64,000 nucleotides of DNA from Variovorax paradoxus B4 (GTDB taxonomy: Bacteria > Pseudomonadota > Gammaproteobacteria > Burkholderiales > Burkholderiaceae_C): NCBI RefSeq assembly GCF_000463015.1, contig NC_022247.1:1054001-1118000 (forward strand), written 5' to 3'. Positions 44,041 to 45,921 of the stretch are shown here, piece by piece. The notes beneath the pieces were generated by a model, which was given only the letters and a program-made list of their open reading frames with translations, ran no database searches and had not been told where the DNA came from. The stretch's first letter is position 1; each line of letters opens with the position of its first letter. The translations under genes were made by a program, and so were the position numbers.

Positions 44041-44577
44041 ATGAGGATCAGGATCAACTCGTCTGCGGCCCTGTGGGCCGTGACTGCCGCGGTGGCATTG
44101 TTGGCGACGGCGGGCTGCGCATCCCGCGGCGGTTCGGGCGGCGGCCAGCCCGCGGCGGCACCCGCTGCCGCGCCGGCGGCATCGGCCCGTGGCGGCGCCA
44201 AGGCCGGCATGGATGCCAAGGGCAATGTGATCGATTCCTCCAAGGTCGAAGCCGGCAGCGGGCGCACCGTCAAGGGCCTGAATGGCTACGAAGGCGAGAT
44301 CACCGGCAATCCGGCGCGCAACAGCAGGTTCACCCGGCTGCAGATCGGCATGAGCGCCAGGCAGGTCACCGACCTTGCCGGCCCGCCGACCGACCAGGGC
44401 GCCTACGTGACGGGCAAGGCCTTCATCCCGTTCTATTTCGGCAGCGACCGCCATCGCTACGAGATGACCTACAAGGGCCAGGGCCGCCTGGTCTTCGCGG
44501 GCGGCGGCATGGGCGACTACTCCAGCGGCAACCTGATCTGGATCATTCACAACCCCAACGAATCCGGCTACCGTTGA
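44041..44577 (+). CDS. BamE/SmpA-like outer-membrane lipoprotein
   Basis: This 178-residue lipoprotein precursor has a signal peptide and lipobox LLATAGC with the lipidated Cys at about residue 26. An Ala/Gly/Pro-rich spacer leads to a BamE-like domain starting RFTRLQIGMSARQVTDLAGPPTDQGAY, the family pattern for folds that contact BamA or related envelope machines. It is probably a BamE paralogue rather than BamE itself. A terminator follows directly. The start is unambiguous because of the GAGGAG site. Confidence 0.8.
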   Translation: MRIRINSSAALWAVTAAVALLATAGCASRGGSGGGQPAAAPAAAPAASARGGAKAGMDAKGNVIDSSKVEAGSGRTVKGLNGYEGEITGNPARNSRFTRLQIGMSARQVTDLAGPPTDQGAYVTGKAFIPFYFGSDRHRYEMTYKGQGRLVFAGGGMGDYSSGNLIWIIHNPNESGYR

Positions 44578-44587
44578 GCCGTTCGTA

Positions 44588-44613
44588 GCCGGGCCTTTGC
44601 CCGGCCTTTTGTT
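44588..44613 (+). terminator. Rho-independent terminator after the BamE-like lipoprotein gene
   Basis: GCCGGGC (44588-44594) pairs with GCCCGGC (44599-44605) around CTTT, followed by a CTTTTGTTTT tract. Confidence 0.88.
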
Positions 44614-44621
44614 TTCCGTGC

Positions 44622-44627
44622 TACATT
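44622..44627 (+). promoter_or_regulatory. -10-like hexamer for the aroG leader transcript
   Basis: TACATT ends 8 bases before the leader-peptide ATG (44636), so transcription would start almost at that ATG. It lies just after the preceding terminator, as expected for a fresh promoter. The -35 is unclear. Confidence 0.4.
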
Positions 44628-44635
44628 TCGCCCAC

Positions 44636-44710
44636 ATGTCCGCCCTCCGCGCTTATTTCTTTGCCTACTTTTGGTTCCCGGTTTCCGGCGGACGAGAGGC
44701 GAGCGCGTAA
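44636..44710 (+). CDS. Aromatic-rich leader peptide of the aroG attenuator
   Basis: A 24-codon frame (ATG 44636, TAA 44708-44710) encodes a peptide with seven aromatic residues in eight positions: YFFAYFWF at residues 7-14 (codons 44654-44677). Such runs of regulatory codons mark attenuation leader peptides. Here Phe, Tyr and Trp are the three end-products of the aromatic pathway started by AroG. A terminator hairpin (44731-44766) follows, and CCGGCGG at 44685-44691 inside the frame can pair with its 5' arm. It is too short to be expected as a stable protein. Confidence 0.8.
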   Translation: MSALRAYFFAYFWFPVSGGREASA

Positions 44711-44766
44711 AGCAAACGAACACCCTCCCAAAACCGCCGGCGCCTCGAGCCCCGGCGGTTTTTTTA
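44685..44766 (+). promoter_or_regulatory. Transcription attenuator of aroG (antiterminator and terminator)
   Basis: Terminator: CCGCCGG (44734-44740) pairs with CCGGCGG (44752-44758), followed by a run of T to 44765. Antiterminator: an identical CCGGCGG at 44685-44691, inside the leader frame, can pair with 44734-44740 instead. A ribosome stalled on the early aromatic codons would leave 44685-44691 free and favour read-through into aroG. A ribosome reaching the stop would cover it and let the terminator form. The logic is that of classical trp/phe attenuators. Confidence 0.75.
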
Positions 44767-44802
44767 TGCCCTGACGATATCCACTCAAACAAGGAAAGCA
44801 CC

Positions 44803-45921
44803 ATGAGCACGAACACTGCCCCCGCCGGCGACAGCTGGTATGCGAGCGTCGAAAAAACCAGCAAGACCGACGACGAACGCATCAAGGACATCAACGTGCT
44901 GCCCCCTCCCGAACATCTGATCCGCTTCTTTCCGATTCGCGGCACGCCGGTCGAAACGCTGATCGAGGGCACCCGCCGCAACATCCACAACATCATGGCG
45001 GGCAAGGATGACCGGCTGCTGGTGGTCATGGGCCCCTGTTCGATCCACGACCCGGCCGCGGCGCTCGAATACGCCCGCCGCCTGAAGGTCGAGCGCGAAA
45101 AGTACGCCGGAACGCTCGAGATCGTGATGCGCGTGTACTTCGAGAAGCCGCGCACCACGGTCGGCTGGAAGGGCCTGATCAACGACCCGTACCTCGATGA
45201 GAGCTATCGCATCGACGAGGGCCTGCGCATGGCGCGCCAGCTGCTGATCGACATCAACCGGCTCGGGCTGCCGGCAGGCAGCGAGTTCCTCGACGTGATC
45301 TCGCCCCAGTACATCGGCGACCTGATCGCCTGGGGCGCCATCGGCGCGCGCACCACCGAAAGCCAGGTGCACCGCGAACTGGCCTCCGGCCTCTCGGCGC
45401 CCATCGGCTTCAAGAACGGCACCGACGGCAACATCCGCATCGCCACCGACGCCATCCAGGCGGCGGCGCGCGGCCACCACTTTCTCTCGGTGCACAAGAA
45501 CGGCCAGGTCGCGATCGTGCAGACCAACGGCAACCGCGACTGCCACGTGATCCTGCGCGGCGGCAAGGCGCCGAACTACGACGCCGCCAGCGTCGAGGCC
45601 GCCTGCAAGGACCTCGAGGCCGCCAAGCTGCCCCCCACGCTGATGGTCGACTGCAGCCATGCCAACAGTTCCAAGCAGCACCAGAAGCAGATCGACGTGG
45701 CCAAGGACATCGCCAACCAGATCGCCGCGGGTTCGAACCGTGTCTTCGGCGTGATGGTCGAAAGCCACCTGCAGGCCGGCGCGCAGAAGTTCACGCCGGG
45801 CAAGGACCAGCTCTCGGGGCTCGAATACGGCAAGAGCATCACCGACGCCTGCCTGGGCTGGGACGATTCGGTGCAGGTGCTCGACACCCTGTCGCAGGCC
45901 GTGAAGCAGCGCCGGCGTTAA
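44803..45921 (+). CDS. aroG: 3-deoxy-7-phosphoheptulonate (DAHP) synthase, AroG/AroF/AroH type
   Basis: This 372-residue type I DAHP synthase condenses phosphoenolpyruvate and erythrose-4-phosphate, the first step of the aromatic pathway. Motifs are MGPCSIHDPAAALEYA, VMRVYFEKPRTTVGWKGLINDP, GARTTESQVHRE, SVHKNGQVAIVQTNGN and MVDCSHANSSK. ATG 44803 has AAGGAAAG about 8 bases upstream; the open frame further 5' runs through the attenuator and is not coding. Which amino acid feeds back on the enzyme cannot be told with confidence. Its stop overlaps the convergent cupin gene by 4 bases. Confidence 0.95.
   Translation: MSTNTAPAGDSWYASVEKTSKTDDERIKDINVLPPPEHLIRFFPIRGTPVETLIEGTRRNIHNIMAGKDDRLLVVMGPCSIHDPAAALEYARRLKVEREKYAGTLEIVMRVYFEKPRTTVGWKGLINDPYLDESYRIDEGLRMARQLLIDINRLGLPAGSEFLDVISPQYIGDLIAWGAIGARTTESQVHRELASGLSAPIGFKNGTDGNIRIATDAIQAAARGHHFLSVHKNGQVAIVQTNGNRDCHVILRGGKAPNYDAASVEAACKDLEAAKLPPTLMVDCSHANSSKQHQKQIDVAKDIANQIAAGSNRVFGVMVESHLQAGAQKFTPGKDQLSGLEYGKSITDACLGWDDSVQVLDTLSQAVKQRRR

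Follow-up and report, generated by a model that had tools for sequence, protein, structure and literature searches.

The DNA upstream of aroG in the stretch of 64,000 nucleotides analyzed here, which is called the window throughout, has been found to hold an element that, as judged from its sequence, is very likely a ribosome-mediated transcription attenuator of this gene. The same arrangement precedes aroG in more than 100 related bacteria. An attenuator had been proposed at this place in an earlier sequence-only reading, and the proposal is supported by a conserved reading frame, by the aromatic codons within it, and by paired segments that co-vary. As in attenuators of the trp/pheA class, codons for the end products of the pathway are clustered in a short leader ORF, as read from the letters alone, and a terminator lies between this ORF and the gene. 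One leader is likely to sense Phe, Tyr and Trp together.

Organization of the aroG Leader Region

The leader ORF (44636–44710, + strand; MSALRAYFFAYFWFPVSGGREASA followed by a stop codon) extends over 24 codons from an ATG at 44636–44638 to a TAA at 44708–44710. Its codons 7–14 read Y F F A Y F W F, with aromatic residues at seven of the eight positions, and the predicted regulatory codons 7–13 correspond to 44654–44674. The previously described frame of 24 codons with this aromatic run has been confirmed by direct reading of the sequence, and frames of this type have proven rare in shuffles. ATG frames of 8–40 codons with at least five aromatic residues in eight occur once in the window, the one case being the leader itself, and 20 mononucleotide shuffles of the window have given a mean of 0.05 at this threshold and of 0 at six or more in eight. 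A chance ORF in place of the leader has been ruled out by these shuffles.

A distance of 92 nt separates the leader stop codon from the start of the regulated gene aroG (44803–45921, + strand), which encodes a type I DAHP synthase of 372 aa. Its product scores 536.4 bits against TIGR00034 aroFGH (cut-off 173.2) and 545.8 against the AroG equivalog NF006723, just below the cut-off of 568, and since the latter is narrowly missed, the name aroG is used here in the sense of type I DAHP synthase. A Shine-Dalgarno-like AAGGA has been located in the sequence at 44791–44795 (+ strand), with a predicted anti-Shine-Dalgarno duplex of −5.4 kcal/mol. Between tldD and aroG lies a further ORF of 178 aa (44041–44574), which has a lipoprotein-like start and no match in NCBIfam or Pfam. 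The terminator of this ORF, located by a terminator scan (44588–44615, + strand), separates it from the leader promoter. A second DAHP synthase of the aroFGH type is encoded in the same genome (locus L082, contig C1:159611–160642, − strand). A scan around its start has revealed no aromatic leader but only the tail of an upstream protein frame, and the leader element is therefore not the sole gate to the pathway.

Distribution in Near and Distant Relatives

Near relatives have been represented by 80 aroG loci, the best 80 of 592 relatives in a public genome collection, with Variovorax as the closest named genus, and a leader has been defined as an ATG frame with at least four aromatic residues in eight at most 450 nt upstream of aroG. 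Such a leader is present at 74 of the 80 loci. The six loci without it are L021, which lies at a contig edge, four Polynucleobacter loci (L066, L071, L073, L074), at which aroG by eye starts about 40 nt past the end of a tldD-like gene, and the Cupriavidus chromosome-2 locus L079. Two other Polynucleobacter assemblies (L057, L063) have retained the leader. In a record of Solimonas sp. SE-A11 (L018), an aroG of 84% identity comes with the same kind of leader, an occurrence that points to transfer or to a mixed assembly. The expectation from the earlier reading that relatives would conserve the aromatic codons and the paired segments has held, as frame, codons and segments are kept and the segments co-vary. 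Inspection by eye has further shown that a GGCGG-NN-GAGAGG stretch is kept past the aromatic codons with a reading frame that differs between relatives, and that in some of them the stop codon falls inside this stretch. As it is kept despite the frame changes, the stretch seems to be conserved as RNA and not as peptide.

For more distant genomes, two RNA models have been employed, R1, built from the near leaders, and R2, to which more diverse members have been added. In the genome of the window itself, R1 recovers the window with an E value of 8.9e-23 and the next match at 0.2; with R2, the next match after the window (E 0.007) is a terminator-only piece. Within the same family, 146 of 150 genomes give an R2 match at E ≤ 1e-5, a count of the model match alone, the downstream gene being set aside. 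Across the order, full-length R2 matches at E ≤ 3e-10 have been obtained in 46 of 200 genomes from 14 families, the source genome included, and strong full-length matches are absent from the remaining 154 genomes of this sample. In the class outside the order, full-length R1 matches are confined to two genomes of family f63 among 274 searched. In 200 genomes of the phylum, R2 matches one more f63 genome, the third, as well as 12 genomes that lie outside the class and come from three families; these 12 we infer to belong to the Alphaproteobacteria, and 11 of their matches have been fetched, G658 being left out. All 59 strong full-length matches fetched (45 + 2 + 12) have aroG directly downstream, the leader of one of the 45 (L131) having been identified by eye, and nine distinct weaker matches (L145 and L165–L172, with L144 being the same place as L172) do not lie at aroG; both counts refer to matches fetched, and many partial, terminator-only matches fall outside them.

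Several of these loci merit a separate description. The genome of L131 (G194) is small (1.2 Mb) and has retained the leader MAAKLYFYFFANLKLAEGDGC together with a terminator. L165 and L166, from family f28 of the order, show an aromatic-rich leader (MVTFSVVYNVYFYWYRSSGGAKGC and a relative of it) and a terminator before an ORF of about 200 aa; no aroG is present in the 2.1 kb fetched, and the L165 protein has no Pfam match. At L168 and L169, the leader MTSTNSRPFLLLLAENDLSGPLLRLAR, which contains a run of Leu codons, is followed by a terminator and by a leuA-like gene that to the eye resembles one for 2-isopropylmalate synthase, and this leader has no obvious Shine-Dalgarno sequence.

Alternative Pairing Segments

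Four segments, all on the + strand, have been delimited. Segment 1 (GUUCCCGG, 44674–44681) has been assigned from the predicted fold and from arm swaps as the 5′ arm of an anti-antiterminator hairpin 1:2. Segment 2 (44685–44699) comprises CCGGCGG at 44685–44691 and an outer GAGG at 44696–44699 and can pair with segment 1 or segment 3. Segment 3 (44724–44740), made up of CCTC at 44724–44727 and AACCGCCGG at 44732–44740, is both the 3′ arm of the antiterminator and the 5′ arm of the terminator, and segment 4 (44752–44765), with CCGGCGGTT at 44752–44760 and a T-run at 44759–44765, completes the intrinsic terminator. That 44685–44691 is identical to the 3′ arm of the terminator and able to pair with its 5′ arm had been stated before and is correct (CCGGCGG against CCGCCGG at 44734–44740); the terminator with its T-run ahead of the DAHP synthase gene has likewise been verified by sequence and RNA folding. 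The terminator fold (44712–44771) has a predicted energy of −21.3 kcal/mol (z −3.35), equalled by 1 of 200 shuffles. The fold of 44678–44751 joins CCGGCGG:CCGCCGG with a GAGG:CCUC helix at −24.4 kcal/mol and has no extra stability over shuffles (z −0.72).

In the window, segment 1 is predicted to pair with 44685–44693, and the resulting hairpin 1:2 would, on these modelled folds, be the anti-antiterminator of the classical scheme. Alignment A1 contains 67 of the 74 leaders with a terminator, the window included, and in the minimum-energy folds of these leaders at least two of the five GGCGG bases pair upstream, just past the last aromatic codons, in 66 of 67 cases; at least three bases beyond GGCGG are also paired there in 61 of 67, usually as GAGAG:UUCUC. 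RNAalifold applied to A1 has returned the terminator alone. The scheme of the sequence-only reading stands as regards the terminator and the 2:3 pairing, but it had omitted hairpin 1:2, which default termination would require, and its list of parts lacked the second antiterminator helix (GAGG:CCTC) and an extended −10 box at 44619–44627. TCCGCC at 44639–44644, at the start of the ORF, has been considered as segment 1 and rejected, as relatives compared by eye seem not to keep it and the hairpin beside segment 2 recurs across them instead. The pattern GGCGGNNGAGAGG has been found at 14 places in the source genome and at 9 in a reversed control, so that the motif alone is not specific. In a diverged leader (L067:1258–1397), segments 2 and 3 lengthen together (GGGGCGGCT with AGCCGCCCC), and the antiterminator core comprises nine pairs.

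Co-evolution of the Segments

Segments 2, 3 and 4 vary jointly in relatives, reading CCGGCGG/CCGCCGG/CCGGCGG in some and CTGGCGG/CCGCCAG/CTGGCGG in others. The statistics that follow have been derived from 118 leaders, a set that omits L029, in which no terminator was found, and L131, for which the wrong frame was chosen, both of which are included in a set of 120. At the first variable position, segments 4:3 are C:G in 88 of the 118 leaders and T:A in 23, and segments 2:3 are C:G in 65, T:A in 17 and an A:G mismatch in 19. Arms have also been exchanged between species (89–113 distinct arm pairs, 5000 swaps), with z values that may be inflated by the relatedness of the leaders: swapped arms pair more weakly for 2:3 (z −10.3, 0/5000), and the corresponding values are z −9.2 (0/5000) for 3:4 and z −6.2 (0/5000) for the whole arms of 1:2 over all leaders. 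The outer helix of 1:2 alone has given z −3.1 over all leaders (7/5000) and no significance in either subset (1781/5000 and 725/5000). Two earlier 1:2 swap tests on near relatives only were not significant (1436/5000 and 784/5000), and the significant test differs from them in its arm limits and in the addition of distant leaders. Five control pairings and an unexpected 1:3 pairing have all remained within |z| 2.

In alignment A2, which holds 58 sequences picked for diversity, cells changed on both sides number 30 for 3:4 (10.5 in shuffles, 0/500) and 18 for 2:3 (8.2 in shuffles, 0/500). The same 58 leaders show no excess of 2:3 pairs with a both-side change (276/500 shuffles) and none of further 3:4 pair types (256/500), and in 22 of them the 2:3 pair that varies most is left unpaired. 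A mutually exclusive antiterminator that covaries, as is characteristic of attenuators of the trp/pheA class, has thus been observed in 2:3.

Codon Content and Predicted Stall Positions

The influence of a stalled ribosome has been modelled by folding the transcript through to the last base of segment 3 while masking the ribosome, whose footprint has been assumed to reach from 17 nt upstream to 12 nt downstream of the start of the A-site codon. The predicted probability of 2:3 in the window is 0.83–1.00 for stalls at codons 7–13 (Tyr, Phe, Trp), 0.04 at Phe14, 0.00–0.01 at codons 15–24 and 0.002 with no ribosome. Stalls at codons 2–6 score 0.90–0.98, and consequently any early stall would antiterminate. 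Of the aromatic run YFFAYFWF in the earlier reading, codons 7–13 are thus predicted to antiterminate and Phe14 not to be regulatory. Over the 118 leaders, the antiterminating share declines from 0.95 for codons that start about 15 nt ahead of GGCGG to 0.04 for those some 9 nt ahead, and the distance from the end of the last aromatic codon to GGCGG has a median of 10.5 nt, which puts this codon right at the edge. In 107 of 118 leaders, a stall on the first aromatic codon is predicted to favor 2:3, and in 78 a stall on the last; 737 of the 815 aromatic codons are inside the permissive zone. A ribosome on the stop codon is predicted to re-expose segment 2, with a P(2:3) of 0.75 in the window and a value exceeding 0.5 in 49 of 118 leaders, and 2:3 is still favored without a ribosome in 31 of 118; default termination would accordingly rely in part on early formation of 1:2 or on ribosome release.

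Counted in silico by permissive codons, 84 of the 118 leaders contain F, Y and W, 26 contain F and Y, four F and W, and four F alone, so that codons of more than one end product occupy the regulatory zone, as is expected of a multivalent leader. Synonymous usage in 75 leaders amounts to 211 TTT and 115 TTC for Phe and to 64 TAC and 46 TAT for Tyr. As both codons of each are used, the amino acid seems to be the feature that is kept.

Promoter and Probable Leaderless Start

An extended −10 element, TG-C-TACATT, precedes the leader at 44619–44627 (+ strand), and transcription is predicted to start at 44634–44636, at the ATG or 1–2 nt before it. The −10 hexamer has been recognized in 74 of 75 leaders, in 73 of those 74 at 6–9 nt from the ATG; in the 74, a T and a G are invariant 3 and 2 nt ahead of the hexamer, and no −35 element is conserved. 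A strict TANNNT is present 6–9 nt before the ATG in 74 of 75 near leaders and in 21 of 45 distant ones, 24 of the 45 being without it at this spacing, and the other spacings between 2 and 15 nt have yielded one match overall and none among the distant leaders. A sigma-70 scan of the region has returned no full two-hexamer promoter. By eye, several leaders outside the class display a −35 resembling TGACA and a −10 resembling TATA, followed by 6–7 nt to the ATG. A Shine-Dalgarno 4-mer upstream of the leader ATG is absent in 118 of 120 leaders. From the fixed spacing between the −10 box and the ATG, transcription should start at or just before the leader ATG, and because a −10 box 6–9 nt from the ATG coincides with the lack of a Shine-Dalgarno sequence, which are the marks of a leaderless gene and are both found in the window, the leader is probably translated leaderless.

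Proposed Mechanism and Alternative Explanations

In the proposed mechanism, RNA polymerase would start at or beside the A of the leader ATG, and a ribosome would begin on the leaderless transcript. With ample charged Phe-, Tyr- and Trp-tRNA, the ribosome would clear codons 7–13, segment 1 would pair with segment 2 behind it, and the free segment 3 would pair with segment 4; once this 3:4 terminator has formed, transcription would end at about 44765. If any one of the three amino acids were short, the ribosome would be expected to stall on codons 7–13, where it would block the pairing of segment 1 and leave segment 2 free, and 2:3 would form before segment 4 is made, with the polymerase continuing into aroG.

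It seems rather unlikely that such an attenuator senses in practice phenylalanine alone, the Tyr and Trp codons being tolerated and physiologically minor. Of the 815 aromatic residues 521 are Phe, more than of any other kind, Trp is missing from 26 of 118 leaders, three of which have Phe alone, and the Phe_leader model of Rfam is collinear with the element at a very low score; however, F, Y and W are encoded together in 90 of 118 leaders, the permissive zone holds 93 of 99 Trp and 182 of 195 Tyr codons, and Y, F and W also occur in the 11 fetched leaders that lie outside the class. The leaderless trpL of S. meliloti, which gives rise to the trans-acting rnTrpL and peTrpL (excerpts of PMC7298713), offers a model for a leader that would serve mainly in trans, as terminated RNA or as peptide acting on other genes, with cis attenuation being secondary. 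For the aroG leader this is improbable, given that 59 of 59 strong matches fetched lie at aroG and that what has been conserved is above all the segments on which switching in cis depends.

The unusually aromatic peptide might also be thought to act from within the exit tunnel and to stall the ribosome on free aromatics, for which TnaC with tryptophan is a precedent (excerpts of PMC8429421). We consider such an arrest of the nascent peptide very improbable, because the order and number of the aromatic residues vary by eye with no fixed pattern, because the regulatory zone follows codon position relative to segment 2, and because the direction of the response would not suit a biosynthetic gene, an excess of the ligand leading to antitermination. 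That the terminator present here merely belongs to the upstream gene and is accompanied by a chance reading frame is hardly credible, as the upstream ORF has its own terminator (44588–44605) and the frame, the promoter spacing and the segments are conserved across families.

On the basis of the ribosome-mediated attenuator, a wider reading can be formulated, to which we assign about even chances. A single ancestral, leaderless three-amino-acid attenuator would gate aromatic biosynthesis in two or more classes of proteobacteria, working as an OR gate of charged tRNA-Phe, tRNA-Tyr and tRNA-Trp, in which Trp occupies the last codon still effective in the window, and possibly replacing dedicated repressors of the E. 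coli type, and with a leaderless start its set point would depend on leaderless initiation as well. If true, this would explain how a large bacterial group sets the flux into the shikimate pathway and would provide a natural three-input sensor that can be used or removed in engineering. The element is moreover widespread and below every Rfam threshold, and it would be a well-suited test case for the question of whether attenuators rely on leaderless initiation, and for what reason. Short leader ORFs are presumably rarely annotated, and the aroG leader has for this reason probably been overlooked.

Comparison with Known Attenuators

The enterobacterial pheA leader combines a short Phe-codon-rich ORF, alternative hairpins and a terminator before a gene of the aromatic pathway. 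Its Rfam model (RF01859, Phe_leader) aligns end to end with 44635–44767, with a score of 16.0 bits (E 3) that misses the gathering threshold of 55 and rules out membership in this family. In contrast to the pheA leader, the aroG leader controls a DAHP synthase, adds Tyr and Trp codons and has no Shine-Dalgarno sequence. None of the 11 Rfam matches at E ≤ 10 is to the Trp leader, and nothing in Rfam 15 reaches gathering in the window.

A single leader reads several related amino acids sharing a pathway in ilvGEDA of E. coli, branched-chain ones there and aromatic ones here, a likeness by description only. Multivalent attenuation of ilvGEDA appears in the title of Lawther and Hatfield 1980 (as cited in excerpts of PMC3783181). 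The sequence-only reading had called the sensing of three amino acids unusual, which is fair for aromatics, but the principle has precedents in ilvGEDA and in the Phe-Tyr-Phe leader of C. glutamicum aroF. The trp attenuator of E. coli (trpL) follows the same switching logic (excerpts of PMC1183508). It reads Trp only, whereas the aroG leader is probably leaderless and precedes a different gene. The aroG gene of E. coli is under TyrR control. For the same species, attenuators are named at pheA and trpE, and its aroG is a target of Lrp and GcvB (excerpts of PMC11878033).

With trpL of S. meliloti, the source of rnTrpL, the aroG leader shares an ATG at the 5′ end of the transcript, which has been mapped there (excerpts of PMC7298713 and PMC10117765) and is predicted here; the S. 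meliloti leader reads Trp only and precedes trpE(G). In C. glutamicum, of another phylum, a putative leader peptide with Phe-Tyr-Phe lies before the DAHP synthase gene aroF, with no mention of Trp in the excerpts of PMC4046766 and a likeness that is by description only. The uORFC-13-1 motif before aroF of Acholeplasma may comprise a Phe-reading uORF and a terminator; it has 24 representatives from Acholeplasma and environmental sequences and, unlike the aroG leader, a possible RBS (excerpts of PMC8632094). Regulatory RNA motifs have also been predicted at the DAHP synthase genes aroF and aroH of Shewanella, the aroF entry citing a hypothesized E. coli attenuator that senses Tyr-tRNA, and these are likened to the aroG leader by description only; the excerpts of PMC2659441 give no leader peptide for them. 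Among the matches listed in the open-license literature, there is no report of the aroG leader element, an earlier prediction elsewhere being possible, and the excerpts of PMC2965389, PMC1262725, PMC1273637 and PMC4833913 do not mention aroG or aroF. The attenuator is of a known kind. Within this kind, the aroG leader family is marked out by the gene it precedes, by the three amino acids and by a probable leaderless start, and it seems to be a new and widespread member.
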